This document shows positions 41,712 through 64,000 of a DNA stretch of 64,000 nt, piece after piece. Positions within the stretch are counted from its first letter, which is position 1. Each line of letters begins with the position of its first letter. Both the position numbers and the translations under genes were made by a program. This stretch comes from Periplaneta americana (Eukaryota > Arthropoda > Insecta > Blattodea > Blattidae). The stretch is from NCBI RefSeq assembly GCF_040183065.1, contig NW_027185499.1:1674001-1738000 (forward strand), given 5' to 3'. The notes beneath the pieces are model-generated. The model did no database searches, had not been told where the DNA came from, and worked only from the letters and a program-made list of their open reading frames with translations.

Positions 41712-42861
41712 TTATCTTCGGCATGGAGTTCCACCTCCTTGGCCACCAAATATCTTCATTGAGTCATTCCACTTCAAACAGGACAAATATAAAGGAAATT
41801 TAACATTGATGTTTTTTATTTCTGTCAAATTTTTTGTTCGATTGAAGGAACAAAAATAAAATTGAAGGGATACAGGGTTACATACAATCTGTGAAATCAT
41901 ATCTTTGTAATTTCTCAGTCGTAGATTGGCTGTTAATTTCGCAATGTTTCCACCATCAATTAACAACTTTATATTCTCATGATGACCACACACATACAGA
42001 CTGAATGAGTACTACTAGCTCCAGGAAGCACACATTGTTTTGGTCTTAGTTCCGCAAATTTTTAAAAACTAATTTCTATGTCTGAATATTTAACCTTAAA
42101 AGCTCAAAATGTTTCTTTTAAATCTGATAACAATAATCTTTTCTGTTTCTGTACTTTGTGGCCGTCTTCTTTTACAGAAACGAAGTTTTACTTTCTCGCC
42201 ATGATGCGACTTATATCATTATTAGTGTAATGGTCAATTAAGTACTTTTTCCACTATGGATGTGTCTAAAGTTTATCCAATTCTAGATTCTGGATTTGAG
42301 AGAATTCCCCTCTCTGCAGCTAAGTTTTTTGCAACACTGATCATGTGATTAGATGCATCACAGTGTTCCCTAATTTTACTGTATGACCACTCTTCAAATA
42401 TATAGTATTGACAGAAGTCAATAGTGTTTCCGAAACACTCTGGTAGCTTATTAATTATGTCACCGCTACTCTTCTCATCTGGTGTTGTTTCTACTTCCTT
42501 TTTTCTCAACGCGAAAAATCTTTTCCTTATGTGTCTGTTTTATTTTCTGATATTTCTGTTAGGGATAATTCTTCTGTGATAATTTCTTCTTCTTAATTGA
42601 TGTCTCACCCTTGACATCAAACTTTCATTAAAATTATCAATGTCCGTCACTGACACCTCTGACACCTCTGAATTATTTATCAATTTCCGAATTGCCTGTT
42701 GTTTCTTCTTCAATGTTCTGGACACTAGAACCGCCTAAGATATCAACACTGCTGGTTTGAACAGCACTTGATTCACTAATATTTGACATTAACAAAATTT
42801 TCTTACGACAATTTTCACAAATCCTAAGATTGTACGACAACTTAATGTGTTGCATTTTCAA
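41712..42861 (-). pseudogene. Fragments of an unassigned multicopy arthropod protein
   Basis: Minus frames in order: LRICENCRKKILLMSNISES (42861-42673); QQAIRKLINNSEVSEVSVTD (42725-42540); SSGDIINKLPECFG, EEWSYSKIREHCDASNHMIS, VAKNLAAERGILSNPESRIG (42509-42273); CGHHENIKLLIDGGNIAKLT, YKDMISQIVCNP (41993-41850). An N-terminal C-x2-C motif, then a helix-turn-helix-like 'W(S/T)..KI...F..S..M...AK.L..E.GIL..P...G', then a C-x-H-x-N-x-K-L motif is a pattern I recall from multicopy uncharacterised arthropod and cnidarian proteins that are probably transposon-encoded. I cannot name the superfamily. Frame changes indicate decay. Confidence 0.5.
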
Positions 42862-43861
42862 TTTTTAAGCATGTTGGAAGTCACGCACCTTAATTTCCCT
42901 TTCTTAAACCTACGACTATGATTGCTTATTTTGAAAGGATTAAAACACTGATCATGTCTAGGTTCTGTTATTACTCATTGTGATTAGCCTACACACTAAT
43001 TGCACCAACTAAAAACAATAACAGAAACTACGCCACACACACTCGCGGTAATACTATAGTACAGTGTTATTAATGCCCTAACGTTTGAAAATCTCGGAAC
43101 AAACTGAAGAGAATTCATTCCGCCTTGGACCTGGATTAGGTATGGTATTGTATATCCCAGCCAATCTTCTCCAGACATAAACAAATAGGACTGACAGTCG
43201 CCAGTGTGATGTCGCATGCCAGACTTCAGCCAACAGTTAACAGTGTGCCGCTACAAGGGATTAAGAGCGCAACAGAGCTCTATGCGCGTATTTATTTAGT
43301 ATTTTTTTACTCTGTCATTTATTGCTTTTCCACTATGAAATTTTGGTCTACTTACACATAATTAAATGGAGAACATGCTGATAATTTAAAAATGGTATTC
43401 TAAGTTTGCTAACATTATGAACAACAAAATTAACCTATATAATAATTATGGCATAAAGTACTGTGAATACATAAAAATGGAAAGTGATTATACACAGGCT
43501 AAAAGCCTGATATTTAACCTTCCAAATGAAACTAACCTCGATTTCATACGATACACATAATGGGAGAAACGAATGTTTGTATATGCCAATGTGTACAATT
43601 TTTCAATAATTTTGATGCTGTATAGATCTCAAAATAACCAGAACTGGGGCCAAGAAAAATAATATGGGTCTCTTATTTTTACCCTTAGAAAGCATACAAG
43701 AAGTTTCAAACAATTCTAAAAATATGAGATCAAAAATTTGTCCGGTCTGACGTGGAATGACTCCATTGCATATAAAGCCGACACCTTTACATTTATACTT
43801 TGCTCCAAAACATGACGCCCTTCCTTCACACCTTTCACCACTTAACTGTAGAAACGAGCAA
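42862..43861. other. Non-coding stretch
   Basis: Nothing recognised between the preceding fragments and the MULE left end. Confidence 0.4.
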
Positions 43862-44181
43862 GGGGTAAAATTTACAAGCGTCTAGCTGTAGCAAACAGGA
43901 GTCTCAATTTCTGCGTGTCTGATGGGTCGGGAGAGATTGGTCGAGATCGGTCGTCTGCCGTTGTAAGAGCCATCTCGTGTATGTGTATATATACGCGTAT
44001 TAGACTGTGGTCTATATCGTGTAGGCCAATGCCATCATCCTGGCGGCAGCCTTCGAAATCTCATAGAATTGTCTGTGTTTTTTCTGTAATTTGTTAAATT
44101 TGTTTCCCTATTTATTTGTGCTATTTAGATGTGTATTGATATAATGTAACTAGTAATAACCATACTTTTTATGTAAGTTTT

Positions 44182-45110
44182 GTGGTTCCTCAGTTTTCTT
44201 ATAAACGTAATGTACAAACTCATAAGAAAGTAAAGCATGTTGTGAAAGTAAGCAAGTCCTTCAAGTGCGATTATTATGACGCGCAGTTCAATCATGTGAA
44301 GAATCTTAAAAGGCATGAAATTAAAAAAAAAAAAAAAAACATAATATTGTATATAATAGGTTTAAAAGTGACAAAATCTTTAAATGTGAAATGTGTGATG
44401 CTCAGTAATCAAGAAAACAAACTCTGAAATAACACGAAAGTCAGGTGCATCAGTTAGAAGCAGTGACGCGTAAGAATGTATCAAAACATCATTGCTCTCT
44501 TTGTTCATATGAAACAACCAAATATGAATGATTAAAACATTATAATGAAATTCATAATATATCACAACTAAATCAGAAACATTTCTAAACTTAGAAGAAG
44601 TTCATAAATGGAAGAAAAACACAGAAGTGGAGACCAGAGAAAACTTTATATACAGTAAGTTAGAGCGTGTCAGAAAACAGCAAGTAACATTAAGCATCAC
44701 TATTTTTCCTGTTACCACAGTTGAGTATTACATGCCTACGTGAAACAGACAAAGGCATATATACAAATACAGGGCAGCAAAAATTAATGCTTTTTGTCCG
44801 GCCAGTATGAAAATAAGAGAGTTGGAAGTTATAATTTACGGACACACATGTTGGGCATGGAAGTGACCTTGGCCATTTGTTTCTCTCTTCTTCTCAGCGC
44901 CTGGAAACAGCCAGTAAGATAGCTAACAAGATACCATTTGACACCATATTGAATGAGATACGAGACTCTGTCACAGAATCCAGTTTAGAAACAGTACATC
45001 TCTTAACTAAAAAGGACTGTATAATACTGAGAAAGCCTTCAATCTTTCGGAAGAGGGGATGCGTAATGCTGGATACAGGAAGTTACAGAAAGCAGTGATC
45101 AGTGTATTCT
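44182..45110 (+). pseudogene. MULE transposase N-terminal part
   Basis: C2H2-like finger remnants come first: FKCDYYDAQFNHVKNLKRHE (second Cys replaced by Tyr), KCVMLSNQE-type, HHCSLCSYETTKYE...LKHYNEIH (44490-44560). After decayed sequence follow HVGHGSDLGHLFLSSSQRLE, TASKIANKIPFDTILNEIRD, SVTESSLETVHLLTKKDC (44840-45020), the conserved block preceding the catalytic core in insect MULE proteins. There are stops between blocks. The frame is lost after about 45110, where the hAT-bearing insertion starts. Confidence 0.7.
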
Positions 45111-45112
45111 GT

Positions 45113-45981
45113 ATTATAAGTAGGGAAAGGAAGTTCATGTATTTGCATATTTATTCTCTATCATTGTTTGAATATGCTGAAAGATTATCTACATGAATCA
45201 CACATTTCTGAATACAATTATATTACTTTTATTGTGCATTAATGTGCATATTTTGCCTCTATTTATAAAAGCATCATATTTTAACATTTATGCAGGGAAC
45301 CTGCTTATTATGTATGTTTATTTGTCTTTCCCTCATTTTTAAAAGTATGTAACCTTGTAAACACGACTAATTTATGTTTATGAATTTTGAACATAACGAT
45401 GGCGCCCCCATAGGGAGCCTCTTGAGTTAGCAATTAGTATTCCTTTACTGCAGTCTTGAGCAGATTTCGATAGAACAATATCCAGTTTAACATCAGTTCC
45501 AAAAAAATGTAGGAGATAAAGTGAATGAGAAAACAGCAAATATTCTTTCCAAAAACCCTGGATATTATCAACTTAAAGAAATTCAAGATATTCTCGAAGG
45601 AAAAACACCCCAAAAACCAACAAAATGTTCTGTAGAACAGCTCACAGCTTTTGTGCAAGCCCTTCTTACTTCTTGTGACGTAGAACGAAATTTATCGCGC
45701 TACAAAGCTATGCTTAGAGACAACAGGCAAAGAATGACAACAGAAAACATACGACACTGCTTAGTTGTGAACTGTAACAGCATAAATGGAACATTCAGCA
45801 ATGAGGCTAGCATTTCAAAATCCATAGACTAAACGTAAGTTACCTATACCTTATTATTCTGTTAAAATAATCTCAGACTGATAATGAATACTTTGTAGCA
45901 TATTTATCAACAATTTTTACGGCATAATGCATACATATTCTTCACATTTTTAGGGCATGAACTTCCTTTCCCTGATTATAA
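45113..45981. other. 26-bp inverted repeat flanking the hAT fragment inside the MULE
   Basis: ttataagtagggaaaggaag-ttcatg (45114-45139) is repeated in inverse orientation at 45956-45981 (catgaacttc...gattataa) with two or three differences. The right copy is MULE coding sequence (HELPFPDYK). The left copy is therefore either an inverted duplicate of MULE codons or one end of the inserted element. Confidence 0.6.
45470..45832 (+). pseudogene. hAT transposase C-terminal dimerisation fragment
   Basis: Frame 45521-45832: SKNPGYYQLKEIQDILEGKT, KCSVEQLTAFVQALLTSCDV, ERNLSRYKAMLRDNRQRMTT, ENIRHCLVVNCNS. The 'P.(T/S)S..VERSFS.YK..L.DNRR....EN' order is the hAT dimerisation domain of the CGGBP1-related group. 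It lies inside the MULE and is nested, so it is younger than the MULE copy. Confidence 0.8.
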
Positions 45982-47490
45982 GCCACAAGGAACTGCTCCT
46001 GACATGACAGCACATTTTTTGAAAGAAGAAGATTTTGTTCTTATAATACAAAGCCCAGGGAGAAATTTTAAAAACATATGGCTCAGAGAAAGTAATAATT
46101 GAGGGCTTTGCTGGAAGAAAGGCGGGAAGACCTATATGCCCTTCTTCGGAAAAACGGTTTAAAATGTAGTGAATAATTCGCCAATTATAATAGCGGAATT
46201 TTGTTTTGATTGTACTGTACATACCTGCAGGAAAGGGCTGCATGCGTGTATAACATTTTATTCAGGTGCGTTTTAAAATCTTAGATTGCATGTATCTCAT
46301 TTAGCCATATTGACGTATACGCCCTTTTTCCGGCAAGCCCCTCAATTATTGATGGTAGGGCCTACCCATGGTATGGGTGATTATGGATTTCAACTTATCG
46401 CAATAATGACAGTTGATGAAATGAATCAGGGACTTCCAGGGACTTTCTTAATATCTAATAGGACAGATGAAAATGTGCTATCTTTTGTTTTTTAATTGTG
46501 TTAAACAAGAAATTGGTATCCTGGCCACAAAATCTTCATGAGTGACATGAAAGAAGAATTTTATAAAGGTTTACGAAAATGTCCAGCTTTGGCATCAAAT
46601 TTTTTGGATTAGGACTCTAAATTATACCGGGAAGCTAGAAGGCGAATGAAGAACTTCCAAGTGCCTGGGCAATAGATATTACTACAGTGCGAGCGAGAAG
46701 TTTCTCCGCAGTGCTTCTGTAGCCACGGTGCAGCCGAGAATCCACCAGGCAGAGAATTCAAGTGGCAGCACTGGCCGCTAAGCATATGATTGACTGGGGA
46801 TGTGAGGTTGTCAAACCGGAATTAATGGGAAAATGTCAACTTTCTACAAGATTACGTACCAGCTGTCTACAGGATTGCTACAACTAATGGAGCTGCGGAG
46901 GGACTTTTGGATCGCACTGTATAAAGCTTGGGTAACTGTGATGGGCCCTCCCGATATACGCTTGTTTTACACTTGGCACATCGAAAAAGTATGGAGTAAG
47001 AACATTAGGAATAAAATAAACGATTTAACCTAGCAGGCAGTAACATACAAGTATTTACGAGTTCTTCACACAGAAAATGACGAGAACACTTATGCTAAAC
47101 TTTTGGTAGGAATCCTTCAGTATTTAACAGGTGATATTGAATTATCATTATTTTTTTAATATTTTACTACTACTGCATGAAGAACGTAGTGTGTTGGGCC
47201 TGCTGCCGTAGGAAATAATTGTGGTATAGATATTAATATGCACATAGAACGGATGCAACGTAGTGCTCTAAAGCACATATACCTACACTGTAAAAAAAAC
47301 AAGAAGACTAGACAAAGACATATCAACTCTCATAAAATTAACCAGAGATAGACTATTCGACAGACTGACCGTTTTGAACAAAAGAGAAATACAAAAACAA
47401 ATCTGATATGAGCAAGCCAATCCGCAAAGAAGTTCTAAATATTTCTCTGTCACTTTTGCAAAGAAAGGAAACAGATCAATAAAATATATG
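45950..47490 (+). pseudogene. MULE transposase catalytic and C-terminal part
   Basis: Blocks: HELPFPDYKPQGTAPD and HFLKEEDFVLIIQSPG (45955-46070); interruption by a MITE; then THGMGDYGFQLIAIMTVDEM and NQGLPGTFLISNRTDENVL (46368-46480), FMSDMKEEFYKG (46535; second acidic motif), WVTVMGPPDIRLFYTWHIEK and VWSKNIRNKINDLT (46930-47033), KYLRVLHTENDENTYAKLLV (47050), then HIERMQRSALKHIYLHC and the decayed tail (47240-47480). The usual Asp before THG is lost in a frame disruption next to the MITE. About 350 bases (46565-46915) of foreign or degraded sequence split the core again. Confidence 0.75.
46101..46343. mobile_element. MITE inserted in MULE coding sequence
   Basis: The left end gagggctttgctggaagaaa(ggcg) is matched inversely by the right end (cgcc)ctttttccggcaagcccctc. 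AATT abuts both ends (46097-46100 and 46344-46347). Removing the element would bring the MULE codons KTYGSEKVII next to the (D)GTHGMGDYGF block, so the boundaries agree with the protein. Confidence 0.8.
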
Positions 47491-48276
47491 TACAGTTCAT
47501 GTTTCTTTAGTGTTGTTGTTTGTTTGTTATTTAGTAATATTGTATTTGTTAAATTCGTTTCTTCATAAGACAGTTTATTCATTTTATCCTAACATTATCT
47601 ATGGGTGGCAAGATTTATGTACAGTGATGTACAGTTCAGCAGTGTAAAGTGAAAAACTGGTATCTACACATTCATTTGTAGATTGGATTTAAATGGTGAG
47701 TGACCTATATGGTATTTCATAACATACTATTAATGATGTTCTTATATTAATTATTTATGTTGGATTTAATCAATTTTTTGTGGGGATATTCATATTATGT
47801 TAGTACAATATAGGAACCTTACATGCAGGAAACAAGCATCGAACCAAAATCACACATGCGCGACTGATTTCACTCGACCCAACAGTACAATCGTTAATGT
47901 TTTATTGTACAATCATTACTTATTAATTATAAATAAGATACATTTTAGAAGTGTAGGTCTAAAAGCAATTGGCGTACAAATGTATGTAACACTTATTAGA
48001 CCAGTACACCTATTCATTTCAAGAGAAACACAATATCTGAGACTTAGAATAAATCGACGCCTAATGTCAAAGGACACTAACTCCAAAATCACAACTTTAC
48101 AGGGGAGGCAAAAAACAGTTTAATTGTGTACATTTTATTGTTACTGCTTTAATTTAAGAGATATGTTGATAAAATTTAAATCATATATATATCAAATATA
48201 AACCTAAAGACAATACAATACAGTACATATTTTCTAGAAATATTTTAGTATTGTCTTAAAAATTAACACATTTTGG

Positions 48277-50401
48277 AGATAGTGTTCTTTGTTACTAACG
48301 AAGCTTTCAATTTAGTAGACAGTGTTAAAAATAAATGCCAAAATATTGAATTTAAACATTTTAATAAGAAATTATAGCTATTTGACAATGCAAATTAATA
48401 AATTTAATTATTGTGGTGAGCAGCAAATATCAATTTCTTCTTCTTCATAAAGGAATATTACCTAAACTTAGAACATATCAGTAAGATTATAAAAATACCA
48501 GTTAATATTATTTACACAGCATAAAAGCATAATATTATCATTATTAGATCAATTTATACTATTATCTGAAATAATAATTTTAACAGTGCATTTATAAAAT
48601 AATAAAAGAGCAAAGTTATCTTCATTTTTACATTGCATTTTAGAACATCAGTGTTTTTAAATATTGCTAATGTTACTTTAATATACCACAGCTGATGAGG
48701 GTTTGGACGAAAAAGTTATTCAATTAATGATCAATTTATTTAAAAAATAATGAATTCTACAAATTCAGTTCATTTAAAAGTCTGTCTGCACGTAATGAAA
48801 AGAAAACACACACTTAACTCAGAATTTGTGCCCTAAATGACATTGAATAAAATTATAATATGAATATATTATATTATATTTGATTCAGTATTTTATGTTT
48901 TGAATAGTATCAATATCTACACCTCTCATATAAAAATTTGAAATTTCCTCTTAATTTTATAATCACTCATTGCTCTTCATTTTGAGTACTGTATCTTATA
49001 TTACGATTTCCTGTTCTCCATTTTTAAACTATTGTAAAAGAATTGGTAATTTCCTGGTAAAATATTCTGTTTACACAGTTGCAATAGATTTTTAATTTTC
49101 TAATCTTGTATATTTTTAGTGCTCCTTGATGCTTTGGTTTAAGCTGACGATTATCCAGCCTAAATCCAAGTGTAATCTTGCTTTGTACATTGAATTTTTG
49201 GAATTCTTCATCATACCTGTATTTAAATAATAAGTGTTCACTGTTACTTTTCCGATACTGGAACCACACTATATCCAGCCATCTTACAATGTTTCCGTTA
49301 GTGTCAACTTTCTTGTTCTTTATTAATGTCTTCTGAATTTCTCTTACATAATTAAATCACTCTGTTTCACTTCTATTTTTGATACAGCTTAAAGTATAGT
49401 GTATCACCCTGATGGATCAAATATTTCTGTATGTTTGGTTGTTTTTTTTTCAATGTTCGCGTTGACTGTGTCCATTTGTGAATGTCCTGGTTAAAAAAAA
49501 TATGTTCAATTTGAGGTATGTCAAAAACATTCGCAGCGTAGAGGAGCATGGTTGATATAAGCACATTCCTCCACAAGTATCGAACATGAAATAGAACCTT
49601 TTACCATTCTGCAGTTTTTTCATTTGAGCAAAGAGACGTGATGGTACTACTGCAGCTTCCCTTTCTGCAATTATCTCGTTTCATATAAAATTTTGTGCTG
49701 TTCTGTTGGCTACAGCATACACGGTCAAATTATATAGGCCTACAGCTAATCTACGTTTATAAAACACTCATTCCATTTTAAAACTTGGATTGTAGCGCAC
49801 AGCTTCGAAATAAAATTAAAAAAAGTAAAGAACGTTCACTGATGCCATAATTTTGTAATTTTCTTTTACTTGAGCTGCTTCCTTTCTTTCAATGTGGGAC
49901 TGACGAACTGCCTCCGTTTCTATCTTCTTAAGTTCAAACATGTGATCATATTTATAACATTTATTGCATTGATGCTTTCTGGGATTATGAAAAGCTATAT
50001 TAAAATTATTTTTGAAAATATGACGTTAATATGAAAGGTTTTCTGTCTGAACATTAGCATTCCTGAATTTCCCTTCCCCCAACATTTGGGCTCATCATTG
50101 ATCCGGATGCACCGCAACCTTAGGCTTACTGTGCTACCTATGTTTTATCATTTAATACCAATTCATCAACCCTGTTACCTTGATTAAGGTGTACAGTCCA
50201 GATATAGAACGTTTATTACAAACTGTAAACTTCTTACAAACTGAATTGATTTAAGAATGCGTGTTCTATTAATAAAAAAATTATCAAATCTTTAACAATA
50301 AACAGTATGGTGATTGTATTACATTCTTGGTTGTATGTTCTGAGGAAGTGTCACCAATAAAATCTTACAAATGTTAAATAATTTAGAGACAAAGAACACT
50401 A
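48277..50401. mobile_element. Possible nested element with 17-bp perfect inverted ends
   Basis: gagatagtgttctttgt (48276-48292) is inverted exactly as acaaagaacactatctc (50383-50399). Between them the minus-strand frames 49024-49269 and 49373-49576 are unrecognised (LGFRLDNRQLKPKHQGALKI; LYAANVFDIPQIEHIFFNQD). No target duplication is evident. The same word also occurs in other copies nearby (50457-50512, 50633), so the pair could equally be subterminal motifs of the MULE. Confidence 0.35.
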
Positions 50402-50456
50402 TCTCAACTCAGTGTTCTTCTAGTTTATATTTTATTATTGTCAAAGAAAACTAAGT

Positions 50457-50512
50457 CTAGATAGTGTTGTTTGACACTCAGCATCTGTCTAAATTAACAC
50501 AACACTATCTAA
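50457..50512. repeat. Hairpin-forming inverted repeat
   Basis: agatagtgttgt (50459-50470) pairs perfectly with acaacactatct (50500-50511), leaving a 29-base loop. The core word agtgtt(c/g)tttg recurs at 48067, 48278, 50390 and 50633 in both orientations. Confidence 0.75.
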
Positions 50513-51000
50513 AAAAAAAAAAAAAACAAAAAAAAACTATTACTTGTAGAGACATATTACTTTCACACTATTATAAAGGCTACTTTGTACAACATGATAC
50601 TACAAATAATTCAGAAAGTCGATTTTTGGCGATAGTGTCCTTTGACACTAAGCCGTCGAAATGTCAAAGTGTTTTGTAACTAATTCTATAAGTGAAATGA
50701 ATTACTTTATAATCGAAATTGAAACGTTTATCTCTCTTCAATAGCACAGAGCATACAGCTGATCGCGAAGCCCGACCTCTCTATGACGTCACATGGAATG
50801 TTTGAGAGCGACATTTCTATTTGTCTCCGAATCACACATTAGTCGATGGTAGCCAATAAGAACTCGACATACAATATAGCTAGCTACACCTGAAAATTTC
50901 TACTCCTCACAGCGCGACCGATCTCGACCGATCTCATCCGACCCAAATTAGACGTCTCTTGTATGCTACAGATAGACACTTATATAAAATTTAGCTGAGT

Positions 51001-51394
51001 TGCCAATTCCTGAAGTCATTATCACATTGTATTTATGCCACGCGCCTAAGGGTTAAGAAGATAGGGATTTACGAGGGTTTACAATTCCAGGAAGAAAGAC
51101 CGTCATATATTTTGGTGCAAGGTATACCCTCACCATTATTACAATCTAAAAAGCGTCACATTCCAGTACAGTGCCCCGAAAACTTACATAGTGCGAACAC
51201 TGGATGAAAGATTAAGTAACAAAGTTTACTCCGAAGACCGTTTAATTGCACAACTGGACAGTATTGCACAACACAGCATGACCTAATAGTCTATTGTAAT
51301 GTAACGTTTATTGTTATAATTGTAACTAACAATAAAATTACAAAAATGGATAAGCAATAAAGAAAACTGGTAATGTTTTAGGCCCATATTCGAA
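51001..51394. other. Non-coding stretch
   Basis: Nothing recognised. Confidence 0.4.
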
Positions 51395-51590
51395 AAATTC
51401 TGGGTTAAAACTCCGTGCCCAGCCAATTTGACTCATGTTTTTCATGGTTTCCCTCAGTCACGAAGGCATATACTGGATTGGAAATTTGCATATCATGATT
51501 CATAACACCCTTAATCACCAATATCATGAACATTAAAATAAAATCTAAATCAATTACATGAACACAAGCCATTTATAACACACGACAATA
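51395..51590 (+). mobile_element. tRNA-derived SINE (family 2), truncated head
   Basis: The body catggtttccctcagtcacg ... gatattggtgatt-type inverse, 'cttaatcaccaatatcatgaa' region (51445-51530) matches 20215-20320 in reverse complement. The B-box-like gggttaaaactcc (51402-51414) is degraded. Confidence 0.75.
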
Positions 51591-51719
51591 AAAACAGAGT
51601 CAGAACAAAAGTCCATGGCCTACAGATATACCCAAAGATCCTACACACGTGATACGATCATAGATGTTAGTGTGTATGAATAAACTTATCAAAAGAGACG
51701 CCAACTGAGAATAAGTGAA

Positions 51720-52935
51720 ACAGGAGAAGGTGGTTATGGGATTTTTAAGTCAGGTAGGATAAATTTAATTTTAGACAAAATGAATAACACGACCTCAGAA
51801 TGGCTCGAAATTAACATAGGAGTGAAACGGATTTGCGGTGTTTCTCTTTTTCTGTTTATAATGCAAACGAAAAAAATTATTCAGGAATGGAGAGCCATGC
51901 GATATAGAGTTAGAGATAAACAGATATTTAAAAATATGTTAATTAATATTTGTGGATAACCTAGTTTTAATAGCACCTACAGAAAATGATCTACAATACT
52001 CAGTACATTAGTAAAATATCATTGCAAAATATAACATGGAAATAATACAGAAAAAGAAAGTTTCGCCTTCTGGCGAAAATAGCTTGTCCCTAGTAAAATA
52101 TGTTTGGAAGACAAAATTTTAGAAAGAGCAAATGATATTACATATATTGGCTACAAATTAACATTTGATAATTATTTAGAATAATGAGCAAAACTGTAAA
52201 ACACTCCAAGACTATGGAAATGATCAATAGAGTAATGAAACCTTCCCTGGTACAGAAAAGCACTAGAATACGACTTCAACAAACCCTGTACTCAGTTATG
52301 GCAGTTCTTTTTATTTTATTGAGTTATTTTACGACGTTGTATCAACATCTCACGTTACTTAGCGTCTGAATGAAATGGAGGTGATAATCCAGGTGAAATG
52401 AGTCCGGGGCCCAGCACCGAAAGTTACCCAGCATTTGCTCTTATTCCCTTAAGGGAAAACTCCGGAAATACCTCAACCAGGTAACTTGCCCCGATCGGGA
52501 TTCGAACTCGGACCACTTGGTTTCGCGGCCAAACGAGGTGACCGTTACTCCACAGGAATGGACTTATGGTAGTGAGGCAAATATATTAAGGGGAAAGAAC
52601 AGCTAATGAAATAAGATTTATGCGAAGAACAGTATTATATAAAAATGAGACCATAAGTGCAGCGATGAAGTAATGGAAGAACTCGGCCTGTAATCAATAC
52701 TCAATTTCATACAAAATATGAGAACAATTGCATGAGACGTTTGCGATGTATGAGATCCCACAGAATCCCAAAAGCTATGCTTCACTATCTATCTTAGGGG
52801 AAAAGATTTCTGGGAAGCCCCATAAAGAGTTTGAGAGAAAATTACTCTTTATTATGAGATCTAATAGACCACATGACCTAAAACTTGTATGGATGATGAT
52901 GAAGTCAGGTAGATAGATGTCTTTGGAAATGGTTC
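51720..52935 (+). pseudogene. LINE ORF2 remnant (family D), interrupted by a SINE
   Basis: Plus-strand blocks across frames: KKIIQEWRAMRYRVRDK (51870), IFVDNLVLIAPTENDLQYS (51950; degraded active-site box), IIAKYNMEIIQKKK, THILATN-type 'YLGYKLT', TMEMINRVMKPSLVQKSTRI, RLQQTLYSVM (52215-52300), then after the SINE TYGSEANILRGK (52565), DHKCSDEVMEELG (52640), ILNFIQNMRTIA, KPHKEFERKLLF, RSNRPHDLKLVWMMMK (to about 52910). It shares its C-terminal layout with 597-985. It ends with a GATGAT-type run. Confidence 0.8.
52310..52558 (-). mobile_element. tRNA-derived SINE (family 1) inserted in the LINE
   Basis: On the minus strand a pol III head reads GTGGAGTAACGGTCACC (A box) and GAGTTCGAATCCCGATC (B box). 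The body GGGGCAAGTTACCTGG ... CTTTCGGTGCTGGGCCCC ... TTCATTCAGACGCTAAG follows and ends in an AT-rich tail (ttttattttatt, plus). The flanks agttatggcagtt (52292-52304) and acttatggtagtg (52562-52574) are a diverged target duplication. They fall exactly where the LINE motif (S)YGSE is interrupted. Confidence 0.9.
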
Positions 52936-53385
52936 TTGTTGCGCAGTAGTGCAATGGAACAAATGCATAGTGTGATTGTTTTGGTTTTGCCAATCCACAA
53001 TGCATATGCAAGGAATTTCCGCCATCGAGTACAGTTAAGAGAAAAATATTATGTGCTGACAATTAAGATTATTATTGTTTTTACCAAGTATGCTAATTTG
53101 AAGCTTTATGCCATGAAGTCCTGAAAATATGCTGCATAGCATGCTCAATAGTTAATATACACAGGAACGCCTGAAATATGAAAAAAAGGTACAGTTAATT
53201 TTGTATATTCGTTACTACTGTCGTTCAAAACATGTACAAAATGATTTTGTATGACTTGAAAATGGAGAGTAAATTATGCAGTTGAATACGTATCCTCGCC
53301 TTACTACTAGGTCTATGTCATTCACTGAAAGTAAGTGAATGCAGTGACACATGCATAACAATGAAGTTTATTTTGCTTCTTGCAG
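52936..53385. other. Presumed intron 5' of the repeat exon
   Basis: No feature except the pyrimidine tract and AG ending at 53385 (ttttgcttcttgcag). Confidence 0.45.
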
Positions 53386-56300
53386 ACTTACCAGGATACA
53401 TGGAAGACAAGCCAGGTACAATACCACAAACCACGCCAGCTACCATGACAGAACCAATCCCAACTCACATGTTAGATCCCGTGCCACATTCCGTGCCACC
53501 ACCCGTGCCACCTCCCGTGCCACCACACGTGCCATCACCCGTGCCATCACCCGTGCCAGCACCATCATTACAGAACCCACCAGAAGAAGAAGATGACAGG
53601 AGAACGAAGAGTTGCTGCTGGCGTTGTTTAAGGTATTTATTTCTTTGGCTACTTCACATGTTGAATCGCAGGCCAGCACCCATGCCAGCGCCTATGTCAT
53701 CTCTCATGATAGATTCAATGCCAGCTCCCATGCAAGATACCATATCAGTACCTATTCCAGAAACCATGTCAGCTCCCATGCCAGAATCAATCCCAGACCC
53801 CATGCGAGCTTCAATGCAAGATATCATTCCAGCTCCCATGTCAAGTCACATACTAGATCCCGTGCCAGCCCCCATGCCAACTGGAATGCCAGCTCCCACG
53901 CCAAGAGCAATGAGCCTCTGGTCTCGTTTAAGATATAGGTTTCGTGGGCCAGCTCCCATTTCATTTGACATGCCATTTCGCAGGCCAGCCCGCATGCCAT
54001 CTCCCATGCCAGATCGCATGTCACCACCATATTCCAATTGCCTACCAGCAGAAGATAGGCACCGAATAAGGAATGCCTGGTGGTCTTGTTTAAGATATAT
54101 ATTTTTTGGGCCACGTCCCGTACTAGATGACGACGAGACATATTACACGCCGGCACCTATGCCAATTTCTGTGACAGCATCCTTGCCAGATCCCATGCCA
54201 GTACCCAGACCAGCACCAATTCCAGATTATATGCCAGGATCCATGACAGCTCCCATGCCAGATCCAATACCACTACCAGTGCAAGATTCCATATCGGTGC
54301 CTATGCCAGGTCCTATGCCATTACCCATGCCAGCTTCCATGCCAGCAGAAGATAGGCACCGAAGAAGGAATGCCTGGTGGTCTTGTGTAAGATATATATT
54401 TTTTGGGCCACGTCCCGTACTAGATGACGAGACATATTACACGCCGGCAACTATGCCAACTTCTGTCTCAGCATCCTTGTCAGATCCCATGCCAGTACCC
54501 AGACCAGCACCAATTCCAGATGATATGCCTGGACCCATGACAGCTCCCATGCCAGATCCAATACCACTACCAGTGCAAGATTCCATGTCAGCGCCTATGC
54601 CAGGTCCTATGCCATTACCAATGCCAGCTTCCATGCCAGCAGAAGGTAGGCACCGAATAAGGAATGCCTGGTGGTCTTGTTTAAGATATATATTTTTTGG
54701 GCCACGTCCCGTACTAGATGACGAGACATATTACACGCCGGCACCTATGCCAACTTCTGTGACAGCATCCTTGGCAGATACCATGCCAGTACCCAGACCA
54801 GCACCAATTCCAGATGATATGCCTGGACCCATGACAGCTCCCATGCCAGATCCAATACCAGTACCTGTGCAAGATTCCATATCGGTGCCTATGCCAGGTC
54901 CTATGCCATTACCCATGCCAGCTTCCATGCCAGCAGAAGATAGGCACCGAAGAAGGAATGCCTGGTGGTCTTGTTTAAGATATATATTTTTTGGGCCACG
55001 TCCCGTACTAGATGACGAGACACATTACACGCCGGCACCTATGCCAACTTCTGTGACAGCATCCTTGCCAGAGCCCATGCCAGTACCCAGACCAGCACCA
55101 ATTCCAGATGATATGCCTGGACCCATGACAGCTCCCATGCCAGATCCAATACCAGTACCTGTGCAAGATTCCATATCGGTGCCTATGCTAGGTCCTATGC
55201 CATTAGCCATGCCAGCTTCCATGCCAGCAGAAGATAGGCACCGAAGAAGGAATGCCTGGTGGTCTTGTATAAGATATATATTTTTTGGGCCACGTCCCGT
55301 ACTAGATGACGACGAGACATATTACACGCCGGCACCTATGCCAACTTCTGTGACAGCATCCTTGCCAGATCCCATGCCAGTACCCAGACCAGCACCAATT
55401 CCAGATTATATGCCAGGATCCATGACAGCTCCCATGCCAGATCCAATACCACTACCAGTGCAAGATTCCATATCGGTGCCTATGCCAGGTCCTATGCCAT
55501 TACCCATGCCAGCTTCCATGCCAGCAGAAGATAGGCACCGAAGAAGGAATGCCTGGTGGTCTTGTTTAAGATATATATTTTTTGGGCCACGTCCCGTACT
55601 AGACGACGAGACATATTACACGCCGGCAACTATGCCAACTTCTGCGACAGCATCCTTGCCAGATCCTATGCCAGTACCCAGACCAGCACCAATTCCAGAT
55701 GATATGCCTGGACCCATGACAGCTCCCATGCCAGATCCAATACCAGTACCTGTGCAAGATTCCATATCAGTGCCTATGCCAGGTCCTATGCCATTACCCA
55801 TGCCAGCTTCCATGCCAGCCGAAGATAGGCACCGAAGAAGGAATGCCTGGTGGTCTTGTTTAAGATATATATTTTTTGGGCCACGTCCCGTACTAGATGA
55901 CGACGAGACATATTACACGCCGGCTATGCCAACTTCTGTGACAGCATCCTTGCCAGATCCCATGCCAGTACCCAGACCAGCACCAATTCCAGATTATATG
56001 CCAGGATCCATGACAGCTCCCATGCCAGATCCAATACCACTACCAGTGCAAGATTCCATATCAGTGCCTATGCCAGGTCCTATGCCATTACCCATGCCAG
56101 CTTCCATGCCAGCAGAAGATAGGCACCGAAGAAGGAATGCCTGGTGGTCTTGTTTAAGATATATATTTTTTGGGCCACGTCCCGTACTAGATGACGAGAC
56201 ATATTACACGCCGGCAACTATGCCAACTTCTGTGACAGCATCCTTGCCAGATCCCATGCCAGTACCTAGACCAGCACCAATTCCAGATGATATTCCAGGA

Positions 56301-58866
56301 CCCATGACAGCTCCCATGCCAGATCCAATACCAGTACCTGTGCAAGATTCCATATCGGTGCCTATGCCAGGTCCTATGCCATTACCCATGCCAGCTTCGA
56401 TGCCAGCAGAAGATAGGCACCGAAGAAGGAATGCCTGGTGGTCTTGTTTAAGATACATATTTTTTGGGCCACGTCCCGTACTAGATGACGACGAGACATA
56501 TTACACGCCGGCACCTATGCCAACTTCTGTGACAGCATCCTTGCCAGATCCCATGCCAGTACCCAGACCAGCACCAATTCCAGATGATATGCCTGGACCC
56601 ATGACAGCTCCCATGCCAGATCCAATACCAGTACCTGTGCAAGATTCCATATCGGTGCCTATGCCAGGTCCTATGCCATTACCCATGCCAGCTTCCATGC
56701 CAGCAGAAGATAGGCACCGAAGAAGGAATGCCTGGTGGTCTTGTTTAAGATATATATTTTTTGGGCCACGTCCCGTACTAGATGACGAGACATATTACAC
56801 GCCGGCACCTATGCCAACTTCTGTGACAGCATCCTTGCCAGATCCCATGCCAGTACCTAGACCAGCACCAATTCCAGATGATATTCCAGGACCCATGACA
56901 GCTCCCATGCCAGATGCAATATCACTACCAGTGCAAGATTCCATGTCAGCGCCTATGCCAGGTCCTATGCCATTACCCATGCCAGCTTCCATGCCAGCAG
57001 AAGATAGGCACCGAAGTAGGAATGCCTGGTGGTCTTGTTTAAGATATATATTTTTTGGGCCACGTCCCGTACTAGATGACGACGAGACATATTACACGCC
57101 GGCACCTATGCCAACTTCTGTGACAGCATCCTTGCCAGATCCCATGCCAGTACCTAGACCAGCACCAATTCCAGATGATATGCCTGGACCCATGACAGCT
57201 CCCATGCCAGATCCAATACCACTACCAGTGCAAGATTCCATGTCAGCGCCTATGCCAGGTCCTATGCCATTACCCATGCCAGCTTCCATGCCAGCAGAAG
57301 ATAGGCACCGAAGAAGGAATGCCTGGTGGTCTTGTTTAAGATATATATTTTTTGGGCCACGTCCCGTACTAGATGACGACGAGACATATTACACGCCAGC
57401 ACCTACGCCAACTTCTGTGACAGCATCCTTGGCAGATCCCATGCCAGTACCCAGACCAGCACCAATTCCAGATCATATGCCAGGACCCATGACAGCTCCC
57501 ATGCCAGATCCAATACCACTACCAGTGCAAGATTCCATGTCAGCGCCTATGCCAGGATCCATGCTAGACCCCATGCTGGTTCCCATGTCTGATTCCATGG
57601 CGAATTCCTTGTCAGCAACCTATTCAGATCCCATGCCAGTACCCATAGAAGTCCCTATGCCAGCTTCCATGCCACCAACCAAGCCAGACCCCATACAAGC
57701 ACCTATATTAGATCCCATGTCAGATTCCTTGCCATACCCCATTCCAGCTCCAATGGCAACACTCATATCAGATTCAATAACAGCACCCCTGCCAGATCCT
57801 ATACAAGCTTCCATGCCATCACCCATTCCAGATTCCTTGCGAGAACCCATGCTAGCTCCAGTGTCTGATGCCATGCCGGCTCCCATGTCGGATTCCTTGC
57901 CATCACCCATGATAGATGCCTTGTCAGATTCCATCTCGCCAACCAAGCCAGACCCCATACCAGATTCCATGCCTACTTCCATGCCGGATTCCTTGTCATC
58001 ACCCATGCTAGATGCCTTGTCAGATTCCGTGCCACCAACTAAGCCAGACACCATACCGGATCCCATGCCTGCTTCCATGCCGGATTCCTTGGCATCACCC
58101 ATGCTAGATGCCTTGTCAGATTCCATGGCACCAACCAAGCCAGACCTCATACCAGATCCCATGCCGGATTCCTTGCCATCACCCATGCTAGGTGCCTTGT
58201 CAGATTCGATGCCACCAACCAAGCCAGACCCCATACCAGATCCCATGCCTGCTTCCATGCCGGATTCCTTACCATCACTCATGCGAGATGCTTTGCCAGA
58301 ACCCATGCCATCTCCTATACCACCAACTAAGCCAGATCGCATACCAACATCCACATCATTTTCCATGCTTGCTTTCATGCAAGATTCCTTGTCATCACCC
58401 ATGTCAGATGCCTTGCCATCACCCAGGCCATATCCCGTGCCGGCTCCCATGTCACCAACCAAGCAACATCCCATACCAGCACCCATATTAGATTCCATGC
58501 CTGCTTCCATGTCAGATTCCTTGCCATTACCAATATTAGCTCCAATGGTAACACCCAAGCCAACTCCGATACAAGATTCCTTGCCAGTTCCCATGCCAGA
58601 AACCAAGCTAGATCCCATGTCAAATGCCTTGTTAACGCCCATGCTAGATCCCATCCAAAATCCTTTACCAGCGCCTATGCGAGATCCCTTGATAACTCCT
58701 CTGCTAGCATCATCGATGGAAGATCCCATGCCTGAATCCTTGCCAGGTTCCATGCCTGGACCATCATTGGAGCACTTAGCAACGGAAGATGAAGATGAGG
58801 AAACAACAACGACGTGTTGGTCTTGTTTAAGGTATATATTTTGTTTGCTTTGTTGTCGTTTGAGGC
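53386..58866 (+). CDS. Giant Met-Pro-rich tandem-repeat protein exon, family unknown
   Basis: One reading frame stays open for 5.5 kb. An ATG at 53361 would give 1,837 residues, but ttttgcttcttgcag just after it is a strong acceptor (exon from 53386). GAGGC|GTAAGT at 58866/58867 is a near-perfect donor, so the TAG at 58872 probably lies in an intron. The exon is then 5,481 bases, a multiple of three, phase 1-1. Order: Pro/Val-rich start (VPPPVPPPVPPHVPSPVPSP, about 53490-53570), two diverged motif copies (CCWRCLRYLFLWLLHMLNRR; SLWSRLRYRFRGPAP), twelve 98-99-residue units from 54048, a Met-Pro tail with 28-36-residue PTKPDPIPD...SDS repeats (57900-58330), and a final CWSCLRYIFCLLCCRLRR. MP/PM alternation is pervasive. 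There is no known domain, and no signal peptide in the exon itself (MKFILLLA is too short). Single-codon indels between units never break the frame, which argues for coding. Silk-like, cuticle or matrix roles are guesses only. Confidence 0.75.
54048..57560 (+). repeat. Twelve tandem 294/297-bp coding repeats
   Basis: Units start at 54048, 54345, 54639, 54933, 55227, 55524, 55818, 56112, 56406, 56703, 56997 and 57294. Each begins AED(G)RHRRRNAWWSC and carries LRYIFFGPRPVLDD(D)ETYYTP, TSVTASLPDPMPVPRPAPIP, TAPMPDPIP and PGPMPLPMPASMP. The last unit fades after about 57555. Variation is confined to a few positions: an extra Asp in units 1, 5, 7, 9, 11 and 12; PA(T/P)MP; DYMPGS or DDMPGP; LPV or VPV; DSISV or DSMSA. 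Nucleotide identity between units is very high, indicating recent expansion or ongoing homogenisation. Confidence 0.97.
57900..58345 (+). repeat. Second tandem block, about 96-bp units
   Basis: Four to five copies of PTKPDPIPDPMPASMPDSLP, SPMLDALSDSMP with lengths of 32, 32, 28 and 36 residues. They are imperfect and in frame within the same exon. Confidence 0.85.
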
Positions 58867-59464
58867 GTAAGTAGTATAAATATTGTACTTCTAAGAGCCA
58901 TTTTCAGATAGATTGCCCTCCGAGTGTTCCCATGTTTCTCTCCCCACTTGTTCATAGTAAAGCTTCTGTTAGAGTAATAGTAATTTATATATACTCCTTA
59001 ATGTTACCTATCATCAAACCTTTCATTTTATTTGGCGACCTGTTTCTTTATGTTCTAACAATATGTCTGAATATCACGCTCCGTCCCTTGGTTCCACTCA
59101 ATATAGCGATAAATAGACACTTGTGGTCGCATTTTCCATTTAAATATTTTGTTTCCTGATAGGCACATCACGCTTAGAAACGTTTGGACCTGTACATTAT
59201 GAATTAATTATATCTTTATGGCCATACAATAGGAAAGAGATTTACGTTTTTTCTTAGTTCTTTTTTTTTAACCTCAGTCCTAAGAAATCCTTTTTTCTCT
59301 TGCTGTCACTAGAGTGCACTGAAATTAATGTTTGGATGGCAATGGACTTACTGTAAGGTAAGTTCATACATTTGCTTTGTTTTCTTGAATGTAGTTAGTA
59401 ATTATGAATGGCTAGCAGTTTTTAAAATTATGTGATATTTTGTCTGAAACTACATTAACAACTC
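58867..59464. other. Sequence after the repeat exon
   Basis: Begins with GTAAGTAG, a strong splice donor. No clear AATAAA signal was found soon after the in-frame TAG, which favours an intron. The open frame 58932-59159 is hydrophobic and unrecognised. Confidence 0.45.
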
Positions 59465-59580
59465 CCTCAAAATCTGTGCTTCAGTGGCTGACTATGACAA
59501 TATCTTTGAAAAATATTGGAGTGCAGGAGGTCAAGTGATTTTATTGTCAAACGCCTGGTATTAGAAAACAACAGCAACAT
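59465..59580 (+). repeat. LINE family A endonuclease fragment
   Basis: Matches the reverse complement of 6130-6270 (ctgtgcttcagtggct, ggagtgcaggaggtcaagtg, aacgcctggtattagaaaac). A third dispersed copy of the same short segment. Confidence 0.85.
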
Positions 59581-59663
59581 TAAAAACTCCATCCTAGCTT
59601 TCAGTTTAATAAGGAAACATGGTAAAAATTTTGAAATATTTTTTTCTAAACTCAATGTTTTAA

Positions 59664-60197
59664 TATATATTATTTTAATGTACCGAAGTACATATGATAT
59701 TTCCATGCAGATATTCTGCGTCATCATACGATGAAAGAGTAATGGAACGGAGAAAGATTCTCTCCGGCGCCGGGATTTGAACCCGGGTTTTCAGCTCTAC
59801 GTGCTGATGCTTTATCCGCTAAGCCACACCGGATACCCAACCCGGCGTTGGACAGAATCGTCTCAGTTTAAGTTCCAACTCTTGGGTTCCCTCTAGTGGC
59901 CGCCCTCTGCACTACGTCATAGACGTCTATGAACGTAGGACTGAAGTCCACACATGTGCTGAGGTGCACTCGTTATGAGTGACTAGTTGGTAGGGATCCG
60001 ATGGAATAATCGCCGTCTTAAATCACGAAGCATATCATATATATTATTCTAATGTACCGAAGTACATATGATATTTCCATGCAGATATTCTGCATCATAA
60101 TACGATGAAAGAGTAAAGGAATGGAGAAAAATTCTCTCCGGCGCCTGGATTTGAACCCGGGTTTTCAGCTCTACGTGCTGATGCTTTATCCACAAGA
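59664..60197. repeat. Tandem repeat of about 375 bp carrying a tRNA-like gene
   Basis: Unit 1 spans 59664-60038 and unit 2 begins tatatattattctaatgtac at 60039. Both contain ccgaagtacatatgatattt, ccatgcagatattctgc, gatgaaagagtaa and a tRNA-like block. Unit 2 is cut inside the tRNA-like part at about 60193. From memory this resembles an abundant cockroach repeat. Confidence 0.85.
59763..59833 (-). tRNA. tRNA-like sequence, Tyr(GUA)-type anticodon, probably repeat-borne
   Basis: The minus strand folds into a complete cloverleaf: acceptor TCCGGTG/CGCCGGA (one G-U), D stem GCTT/AAGC, anticodon stem TCAGC/GCTGA with loop ACGTAGA (anticodon GTA), T stem CCGGG/CCCGG with loop TTCAAAT. A-box (TGGCTTAGCGGA) and B-box (GGTTCAAATCC) are intact. 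Cautions: position 33 is C instead of the near-universal T, there is no intron as usual for tRNA-Tyr, and the sequence sits inside a tandem repeat with a second partial copy (60138-60193). A SINE head or tRNA pseudogene is more likely than a working gene. Confidence 0.55.
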
Positions 60198-60252
60198 GCT
60201 GAAAACCCGGCGCCGGAGAGAATTTTTCCTCTGTTCCATTACTCTTTCATCG
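60103..60252. repeat. Long imperfect palindrome at the repeat end
   Basis: The arm cgatgaaagagtaaaggaat ... ttttcagctct (60103-60172) is inverted as agagctgaaaacc ... attactctttcatcg (60195-60252), with a 12-base loss in the second arm and a spacer of about 22 bases. This marks an inverted fusion of the repeat unit. Confidence 0.85.
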
Positions 60253-61364
60253 CCAATGTTTTAAGGTAAAATTATGACCACTTAACCAAACCGAACTAAT
60301 TGCCAATAATGCGGGAATATATTCGTATATTTCCCAGCAACTCTCACCACTATCCACCACTTGAAATGGACAGAAGTGAAATTAACTTCGGGCGTCATAT
60401 TTTCTTTTTTTTACGTACAGTTAATGGATTATTCTATAAACATTCAGATTCCTGCTTAATGTTAATTAAATAAAAATAGATAAGCAATGAGAAAATAAAA
60501 CTTTAATACAAAAAGAAAAGCAATAGGAAAATTCATTGCAAATGCTACTTGCGATGTTGAGGAGGGAGGATGGCTTTAATATGGTGGAAAACCATTGAAT
60601 GAAAAATAATGTTTTTGCTGTAAAATACACTTTAATATGTGAGAAATATATATGGCATGAAATTTAATGAGGATATATGCCCTTGTCAACTACTGCAGCG
60701 CTATCTTTAAAACTATGATGCATAGGGTTTTCAAAGAACAAGAATGGTTAAAATGTGGTGGAAAACGAGTGAATTTTTAAAAAGAAAAATTCTTTGTTTA
60801 AAATAATCTTTGAAATTTCAAAATTTCATCGCACAAAATTTAATGCACATTTATATAACCCTTTAGGCTGTCATTTTTAAAGCACAGAGTTTTTAAATTA
60901 CACCAAATTTTAATTGCAATTTCTGGTAACTTTAATTTTTTGCTTCATTCTCATACAAAGAGTGAATATTTTTATATCTTCGAACTATTAATACATGGAT
61001 TTTATTTGAAACACACATTCTTAGATAATTAGGAAACTTTCTGTGAAACAGAGATTTGTTATTTTGTTGAATTTGATAAAATAATATCCTCACATGTTTC
61101 TCTAATGGTATCTCCAAAATTGATTCTTAAGATGTATTCTTTATTTTCACATTTTGAAAACGAATATCAAATTTATGATACAACCATTTTAAAGAATGTT
61201 CTTTTAGGAGTAAAATGACAAAGAGGTTTTGAACTTATCTTAAAAATGGCTCAGATATATTCACTATCGTGACCTACAGTGCCTTGATACTCCCCCCCCC
61301 CCCAACATTTCTGCCCAATTATTTTTACTAAACTCAAATGGGCGACTCCAAAATGAATATAGAT
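60253..61364. other. AT-rich non-coding stretch
   Basis: Nothing recognised apart from a C-run at 61291-61302. Confidence 0.45.
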
Positions 61365-61563
61365 TGTTAGTTGAGAGGCTTGAGAGAAATAGACCTTTGG
61401 GAAGGCCGAGACATAGATTAGAGGATAATATTAAAATGGACTTGAGTGATGTGGGATATGATGGTAGAAATTGGATTATCTTGATGAGGATAGAGGCCAA
61501 TGATGAGCGTATGTGACGGCGGCCATGAATCTCTGGGTTCCTTAAAAGTCATAAGTAAGTAAG
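61365..61563 (+). pseudogene. LINE 3' end, RTE-like family B
   Basis: ERNRPLGRPRHRLEDNIKMDL-type codons (61384-61445), a diverged DLSDVGYDGRNWI stretch, the 3' UTR (tctctgggttccttaaaagt) and a TAAG tail (61551-61563). 5'-truncated. Confidence 0.85.
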
Positions 61564-62037
61564 TAATCTCAAATTTAAGTTGTTGCAGCAATGATATTTA
61601 TATATACAAAAATGAAGAAATTATCATAAAATAGGTAAGAATTCAATTTATACAACATCTCCCCTTAAAAATAAGATTTACATGTATCGGAAATAATCTA
61701 TGAAGGCCAGTGACAGCTTGTGTCTGTCGTGTGCATGGGTGGGTAAGAGTGTGTATCGGTTATGTGAAGATTATAAAACCCGTTCCATTAGTGAATTGAG
61801 GCGTATAGTTGCAAAATCAAAACATAATTTTTCAGTACGAAGGAAAAACGTTTGCAAGGAACTAAGGATTTGCAACCAATTCTCTTTTTCATTATACAAA
61901 TCCATGTTATGTATCTGGCTTTGGAGCATAACAGTGCTATAACAGTTGTAGAATCATATGAAGATATGAAATACAACATTAACTCATTTCGGAAAAAAAG
62001 TGATGTATCTGATTTTGCAACTACACGTCTAAATTAA
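61564..62037. other. Unassigned stretch with two small open frames
   Basis: Frames 61700-61942 and 61852-62037 (plus) are Cys- and basic-rich or neutral and unrecognised. The LINE below has inserted at its right edge. Confidence 0.35.
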
Positions 62038-62049
62038 AGTATTAAATAT

Positions 62050-62531
62050 GTTGTTGTTGTTATCTAATGCCGGGCTTTGGCAACGAAGCCATTAGCGTTC
62101 TTGCTCTCCAATATTTCTCTGTGGTGGATCCATCAGGTAGAACTTCACAGATTAGCATAAGTGTAACCGTTTTTTAAGTGGGCACCAATTTTTTGTTTGT
62201 AATGGTGGTTACATCACCCACTCACGTAAACCCCCAGTATGACTGGAAGGCCACACCTGTCGTTGGTTAATGGGTCCATCGGACCTGGCCGGGAGGAGTT
62301 TTAGAGTCCACCGACCTTTCTCACAAGTACCACTTTTGGAACATTTCTACGCAGTGGCAGGCCAGCGTAAGAGATGAAATAGCATTTCCTCTATTCCTGA
62401 TGGTGTGGTTATACCGCCAATACTCGGTCCCCAGAGCCTCATCTGTAAAAGCAGGTTGCACCACGAGCAGGTTGAGGTTGGGTTTTGGATAGGAGAGGTT
62501 ATGGAATGCACTTCACTGTCCCTTGCAACCC
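62050..62531 (-). mobile_element. Internally deleted LINE family A copy with 12-bp TSD
   Basis: The target duplication agtattaaatat is at 62038-62049 and 62532-62543. The 3' end (62050-62152) equals 2660-2760. The sequence then jumps directly to the 5' region (62153-62531), equivalent to 6574-6600 plus 8097-8453. About 3.8 kb of ORF2 is missing. The copy defines both ends of family A and provides the empty TTAA site for the transposon at 6601-8096. Confidence 0.92.
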
Positions 62532-62532
62532 A

Positions 62533-63839
62533 GTATTAAATATTTAAGCCAGTATAACTGATTCAGTGAGAATATCAATTCAGTTCCAGAGGGAGACGAA
62601 GACAAGAGTCACTACAGAAATTAAAAAATATATTACTATTAAGCACACGTTAGTGAGTAGCTGTTAACCGTTTTCGGAAATCACAGCACACTTAAACTTT
62701 GAGATGAGTGCAGCAAAATTCATTTTTAATAACAATTATTTTCTTTTTATTTTGGTACATTGAAAAGGGTGAACTATCTGATTATGGCTCTTAAGTCGTT
62801 TCATTGTAAAAACAAATAGAAAACAACAATTTATATTAGCAGCAATAGCAGTAGTAGTTGCAATAGTAGTAGTAGTAGCAGCAGCAGCAGCAGTAGTAGT
62901 AGTAGTTGTAATACTCTTTATCTTCTGTCTATCCTATTCCTGATAACTATGCAATACTTGTGTACATTATTCTTGTTTAGAAACACTCTCGGCTACAATC
63001 CAACTAATCCTCTTCTACTGTCATTGCTATCTTCTATTACTATTATCCCTAATTTTTTATCTTCAAGCATATTTATCTCTGACTAAAATTCACTAATTTT
63101 TACGTATCTATATTCTACGTTTTACTGTACTACATTATTTTCCCTATTTTTCACTGACATTTTCTCAGAATTTTACTCTTGCATTCATTCAATGTTACAA
63201 AATTCGAATGTTTGTAGTAACTTCCTTAGTAGTCTTCTTCAATTCACTTATATCTCTTTCTGTTTCATTGGTATATCTTCTCCCTACTTGCACTCACTTT
63301 CATTTATTGTCTACTGCACTTCCCAGATTCTTCCTCTCTGTACTACATAAAACACTCAGTGTTGGTTATTTACCATTTATGACTTATTTTAACTCTCTTT
63401 ACTAATTTCCCTTTCACTGGTTTATTCTATGCGTCTTCTCCTTAACACTTAACTAATTATTCCTAGATCTTTTCCTCAGCTCCACTTCAGTTACACTTAG
63501 CGATCGAATCCTCACATTTCAGTTCTCTAGATTAGCTCGCTCAAATTACACCACTGAAATTTATATTAGAGCAAAGGATTTTAATGAATGACATCTGAAA
63601 AACAGGGATTTTTGAAAAGTAAAAGGACAATTTCTAAGAAAATATATCAATGTTCCCGTTCTACATAGAAACAGATAATAAGTACATTTAAATTTAGTGA
63701 TACCAAGGAAAAACATAGTTTAGGCTCTTTCTCAAGTTCGCACCATTTGTATCAATGTATTTAGAGCCAACTGAAATTAGTTATACATCTTGATTACACA
63801 ACTTTTAACACTGTATCACTTCGGAATATGTATGATAAG
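62533..63839. other. Non-coding stretch
   Basis: Besides the microsatellite, 63000-63540 is pyrimidine-rich on the plus strand without a gene. Confidence 0.45.
62836..62909. repeat. Compound (AGT/AGC)n microsatellite
   Basis: Alternating runs of agt and agc triplets with two interruptions. Confidence 0.93.
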
Positions 63840-64000
63840 AACTTTGTGTTAAATATTAACGTACCTTGTTAACATGTTTCGACCTATTTTCAGTAATCTT
63901 CGGAACTGGTTGTTGTTGGTCTTGGCGCCTCTTGTTTCCTGTGTTGGTGCGTTCGTAGTGTACAGTCAACACACAACTCAATTTCAAAATACATACACTC
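63840..64000. repeat. Probable dispersed-element fragment at window end
   Basis: gttaacatgtttcgacctat and ggttgttgttggtcttggcg resemble a short sequence I remember from abundant insect repeats. The window ends before its boundary. Weak support. Confidence 0.35.

Follow-up and report, generated by a model that had tools for sequence, protein, structure and literature searches.

A 5.5-kb open frame in the genome of the cockroach Periplaneta americana is probably a large exon of a spliced, lineage-restricted, multicopy gene family that is carried by interspersed segmental duplications and is under diversifying selection. The frame lies in a stretch of 64,000 nucleotides, here called the window (C18:1674001-1738000 of assembly GCF_040183065.1), and had been described in an earlier note, made from the letters of the window, as a single-exon repeat protein of no recognized family. 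We find that it is one of at least 32 close genomic copies, to which more distant ones must be added. The assembly holds 3,231,669,367 bases in 91 contigs, of which we take C1 to C17 to be the chromosomes; in its published summary, this PAMFEO1 genome is given as 3.23 Gb in 91 scaffolds, 17 of them chromosome-scale, built from HiFi plus Hi-C data (PMC12774602).

Genomic copies and the blocks that carry them

With the C-terminal 107 residues as the query and the best 150 of 4,174 candidates scored, at least 145 places matched at an E value of 0.001 or lower, and at least 32 of these are close copies with an identity of 94% or more. The unit of the internal repeat array yields no copy count as a query (150 of 150 scored places matched, from 5,254 candidates). 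Twenty-nine of the 32 close copies lie on 11 of contigs C1 to C17 (two on C1, three on C2, four on C3, one each on C5 and C6, two each on C8 and C9, three on C12, two on C13, eight on C15, and one on C17), while C18, with the window copy, C20, and C28 carry one each. Such interspersion at nonhomologous places is also seen in core duplicon families. All but one of the close copies (31/32) sit in open frames of 1,064 to 2,485 amino acids; the copy at C2:116.92 Mb is broken and split into shorter frames. The earlier note held that its proposal would fall if the repeat proved to be a noncoding satellite, dispersed at many loci with broken frames. Dispersed it is, but nearly all of its close copies keep long open frames. 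The remaining 113 matches are 32 to 62% alike, two with an internal stop and many in long frames; 113 is not a gene number, since some frames are matched more than once and some matches may be owed in part to low complexity.

Some of the distant members form same-strand clusters with about 84 to 98 kb between neighbors (C13:39.645-39.906 Mb, C15:146.184-146.359 Mb, C16:138.233-138.407 Mb, C8:142.869-143.051 Mb, and C12:17.175-17.263 Mb), which suggests giant tandem units. The clusters on C8, C12, and C13 are each followed on their own strand, 0.35 to 1.1 Mb downstream, by a close copy. Weakly related matches at C15:173.356 Mb, C15:184.400-184.412 Mb, and C9:18.941 Mb fall in frames of 9,543, 5,753, and 4,757 amino acids, respectively; at C15:184.4 Mb, five matches follow each other at an exact spacing of 2,880 bases within the 5,753-amino-acid frame.

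For ten of the 31 other copies, we read 20 kb around the exon. Each of them aligns to 44 to 64 kb of the window in long pieces of 95.5 to 99.4% identity, and they differ in repeat number and by some insertions. Homology with the C17 copy extends to position 36,019 at 99.2%. Eighteen further probes of 800 bases, taken from the C17, C2, and C5 copies, reach further still: the C17 and C2 probes match the window in 12 of 12 cases at 96 to 100%, down to 3.7 kb, which places the window portion of the duplicated block at 3719..64000. Four of the six C5 probes match, one over 146 bases only, with extra DNA between them. Full-length matches to the +100-kb probe of the C17 copy occur at 12 places in the genome (21 of 21 candidates scored): eight are 90 to 150 kb downstream of close copies in the same orientation, beside 8 of the 32, and four are elsewhere. 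Likewise, among the best 40 of 704 candidates, the -100-kb probe lies 80 to 105 kb upstream of at least 8 of the 32 copies, and also at other places, some of which represent an older repeat. In the matches listed, both probes stand beside five copies and neither stands beside the window copy. Beside six other copies, a C17 probe from 300 kb upstream lies 230 to 450 kb downstream instead, a sign of block rearrangement. The copies thus share a core, whereas, at the level of the +/-100-kb probes, the extent of the block differs from copy to copy.

Such differences in extent are more readily explained by mosaic segmental duplication than by a mobile element whose ends are fixed. If the gene were the cargo of a giant transposable or virus-derived element, this would account for copies on many contigs and for one pair on different contigs (C2:748000-767999 and C15:150364000-150383999) that is 99.96% identical over 19.3 kb, and a Pfam scan of ten other open reading frames (ORFs) of the window gave matches to TNP-like RNase H (35263-35610) and a Mutator-like family (7232-7999), both below the curated cut-off. 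Besides the uneven reach of the blocks, however, reverse-transcriptase-like and integrase-like frames inside the shared block (2933-6596, 23059-24975, and 28478-30085) appear broken by eye, and a search of IMG/VR with three repeat units gave no match, on which ground a viral origin was rejected. We therefore regard a mobile element as improbable. Other copies match at the probed points in 2933-6596 and 23059-24975, so that the broken frames probably predate the spread.

The 99.96% pair may have arisen by spread in the very recent past or may be a duplicate made in assembly. Haplotigs or misjoined copies might inflate the count more generally, and three copies, that of the window included, do lie outside C1 to C17. 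The assembly, however, combines HiFi and Hi-C data, 29 of the 32 copies are on C1 to C17, and the copies that were read, this pair aside, differ by about 0.5 to 4.5% and in frame length; an artefact of assembly is in our view very improbable as the source of the copy number.

Two further features of the block were observed. A tRNA-Tyr gene (GTA) of 72 bases lies at 59762-59833 on the minus strand, amid a 155-bp direct repeat (59663-59817 and 60037-60191) and inverted pieces. In other copies, the segment at 63816-63969 runs directly into an inverted counterpart of about 155 bp, at a position just past the end of the window, with which it makes a palindrome.

The candidate exon and its repeats

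The frame is open from stop to stop over 53286..58874 on the plus strand (1,862 amino acids in the ORF listing of the window). Within it, an acceptor, ttttgcttcttgcag (53371..53385), and a donor, GTAAGT (58867..58872), delimit a phase 1-1 exon of 5,481 bases at 53386..58866. Both sites recur in two distant paralogs, L060 (C18:359200-362700, with a stop-to-stop frame of 951 amino acids) and L061 (C16:85517400-85520100, with a frame of 817 amino acids): the acceptor departs from that of the window by one or two changes and keeps its phase, and the donor has its counterpart in AGG(C/T)GTAAGTAGT. Also kept in both are PSLEHLATE, SC-x-R, and a charged stretch that is acidic in the window and L061 but basic in L060. 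The long stop-free frame and the symmetric exon of the earlier note are thus found as described, and its proposal of splicing on both sides gains support from the paralogs; that of a host protein with expanding repeats is supported as well. Its view that this protein is lineage specific can be backed solely by the absence of protein matches.

The donor can alternatively be read through, in which case the frame ends in Arg-Lys followed by a TAG stop at 58872-58874. The ATG of "MKFILL" is unique to the window, with isoleucine at that codon in 10 of 10 other copies, and ATG 53400 is absent from both distant paralogs, as neither has the ATG codons of the window. A spliced exon is therefore favored over an unspliced start; starts at ATG 53361 or 53400 were rejected, neither being conserved in the copies and paralogs compared.

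On the plus strand, tandem-repeat analysis and motif counts place an array of 11.9 copies of a 294/297-bp unit at 54045..57564. Each of its units, 98 to 99 residues long, combines WWSC(L/V/I)RYIFFGPRP with a Pro/Met-rich linker, and the unit start PAE[DG]RHR occurs 12 times. Tandem-repeat analysis places a second repeat block, with periods of 84, 96, and 180 bp, at 57867..58310. Upstream of the array are an N-terminal module around CCWRCLRYLFLWLLHMLNRRP (53583..53666), which carries many replacement changes, and a second, diverged motif in the region of LWSRLRYRF (53904..53942); at the other end, a C-terminal module, PSLEHLATEDEDEETTTTCWSCLRYIFCLLCCRLRRK (58761..58871), is partly conserved in the distant paralogs. 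The WxCxRYxF-type motif, written as W.[CR][LVIF]R[YW].[FL], occurs 15 times in the exon. The twelve units, the second block, and the roughly fifteen motifs had all been counted correctly before. The 1,829 residues include 449 prolines and 169 methionines. Modeled from the single sequence, the first 322 residues reach a mean predicted local distance difference test score of 50 and are mostly disordered outside predicted helices at residues 67 to 94 (the N-terminal module), 174 to 186 (the second motif), 215 to 218, and 222 to 241, three of which cover the first three motifs.

No solved structure similar to the protein was found. The whole protein scores above the curated cut-off for PF09163 (Form-deh_trans, the transmembrane part of formate dehydrogenase N) with an E value of 3.5e-10. 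Membership was rejected, as no single stretch passes and the best one covers 18 residues (profile positions 27 to 44 of 44) in the first array motif; we attribute the score to many weak matches, added up over a single recurring hydrophobic stretch. Pfam contained no other family matching the protein, so that the statement of no recognized family holds for Pfam, structure, and protein-sequence comparisons alike.

The length of the frame is by itself little proof of a gene, because a stop-free 12-bp repeat stays open on its own. The locus could accordingly be a minisatellite within segmental duplications, open because its 12-bp unit lacks stops and grows by 12, and encoding no protein. Indeed, stop-free reading of the repeat blocks is not limited to a single frame or strand: there are minus-strand frames of 97 to 98 amino acids in many units and one of 427. 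Moreover, a difference in frame gives the families different linker peptides: L060 and L061 read the greater part of the repeat as SHARSDV/SHATSHISSHARSE, the PMP reading being a second open frame there (739 and 328 amino acids). As these paralogs use another frame for most of the repeat, the linker peptide is not conserved, but the openness and the ends of the frame are, and the 12-bp-repeat linker is best seen as a spacer. Against the minisatellite stand the splice sites and the C-terminal end, which L060 and L061 have kept, the lack of any other plus-strand frame of at least 80 amino acids within 54045-57564, and the pattern of substitutions and indels considered next. Overall, we consider this explanation unlikely.

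Frame maintenance and replacement change

Mean pairwise differences between copies amount to 0.66% and 0.58% in the two flanks (5 kb and 4.2 kb), compared with 1.9% and 1.25% in the N and C parts of the ORF. Pairwise indels with a length not divisible by three were absent from both parts (0 of 54 in N, 0 of 38 in C), whereas they make up 219 of 265 and 189 of 328 in the flanks (0.91 and 0.85 per kb). In site counts for ten copies, with the near-duplicate at C2:0.76 Mb left out, synonymous change (13/442 sites) is indistinguishable from that in the flanks (177/6,863 sites; P = 0.64), while nonsynonymous change (75/1,388 sites) runs at about twice the flank rate (P = 2e-7). The motif modules show 17 nonsynonymous changes in 211 sites and no synonymous change in 53. 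Dropping the broken copy, the frameshift of which falls in the array and thus outside the N and C parts, gave a similar outcome (69/1398 versus 184/8264). Three deep ORF branches are about 4 to 7 times the matching flank branches. From the private mutations in the flanks, and on the assumption that flank indels are transferable to the exon, the probability of an intact frame is about 0.35 per copy; 31 of 32 were intact (P = 2e-13). A satellite whose frame decays at the pace of its flanks was not what we found. Neutral synonymous change beside nearly doubled replacement change likewise argues against a minisatellite and is consistent with diversifying selection on a maintained frame, subject to the influence of gene conversion.

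Several points weigh against a translated gene under diversifying selection. The tests cover the exon ends, without the 3.5-kb array. Compared directly, nonsynonymous and synonymous change differ weakly (P = 0.04), and the pairwise ratio of nonsynonymous (pN) to synonymous (pS) difference is uneven, at 2.81 in N and 1.29 in C. Counting stops only, the predicted intactness is 0.81 per copy, and 31 of 32 then gives P = 0.0085. All P values assume independent changes and copies. Gene conversion, whether among the repeat units or among the 15 motifs, could produce an apparent excess of replacements, and judging from the sequences, some changes in the N-terminal module resemble the array motif, so that conversion may have a share in them. 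Between L060 and L061, pS (0.200) and pN (0.214) in the N exon are about equal and the upstream intron differs by 0.058, values that fit no simple selection story. No further exons of the gene were identified. A search of 5.8 billion protein sequences, including NCBI nr, with targets of 0.55 to 1.75 times the query length, returned no homologs; the failure to find an annotated protein there would also suit a minisatellite. The lone match, a lungfish RNA-binding protein (E = 2.6e-4, over 8% of the query), was taken as low complexity. The family thus seems unannotated even in Periplaneta americana, provided that the database includes that annotation, and this absence of matches is the sole ground on which a restriction to one lineage may be proposed.

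Proposed function and known systems

In the reading that we favor, the 5.5-kb frame would be one exon, large, symmetric, and bearing the repeats, of a host gene that has several exons and many copies. This gene would form the core around which large interspersed segmental duplications have recently reached at least 32 places. It would be transcribed, spliced to other exons, and translated into a string of short tryptophan/cysteine/arginine-aromatic helices, as modeled for the first three motifs, each beside charged clusters and separated by disordered Pro/Met linkers. Conceivably, such a protein binds membranes or partners multivalently, the bead number and motif-flanking residues of which are diversified by evolutionary conflict, be it germline, immune, or selfish. 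Conflict together with duplication might then keep the copy number high. More tentatively, and with doubt outweighing confidence, we can envisage an insect that independently evolved a core-duplicon gene: hypervariable and repeat expanding, under diversifying selection, and carried to dozens of chromosomal places by duplications of the hundred-kilobase scale that it either drives or rides. Giant frames (up to 9,543 amino acids) in the same genome would then form a wider superfamily, and the locus might be a selfish or germline-conflict one. If the favored reading is true, the known gene content of a widely used insect grows by a large, apparently unannotated family. Gene predictors may mask such a region as repeat.

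Coding minisatellites and proline-rich repeat proteins generally carry low-complexity repeats of variable length. The cockroach protein shares with them such a repeat and a length that differs between copies, but is unlike them in its charged-aromatic modules, its conserved terminal module, and its presence in many copies within duplicated blocks.

In pattern, though not by descent, the cockroach family most closely resembles LCR16a/NPIP (morpheus) of primates; neither the protein database searches nor Pfam revealed any sequence relation to NPIP. As described in PMC7419210, LCR16a/NPIP comprises interspersed blocks around a shared core, with its frame kept and an excess of replacements, as well as four-residue repeats and a repeat altered by a frameshift, and the human blocks are on chromosome 16. 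Titles and opening lines of abstracts in the open-licence literature yielded no insect or cockroach case of such duplications or of this family; the interspersed duplications around a fast-evolving gene found there are described from primates. A true reading here would provide a second, independent case, in an insect, in which to test what drives the spread, the gene or the architecture of the genome. Both systems have large interspersed blocks around a core, a maintained open frame, and excess replacements, along with four-residue repeats and a repeat that a change of frame has altered. The cockroach family differs in belonging to an insect, in being spread over 11 of contigs C1 to C17, and in that its gene is predicted from DNA sequence.

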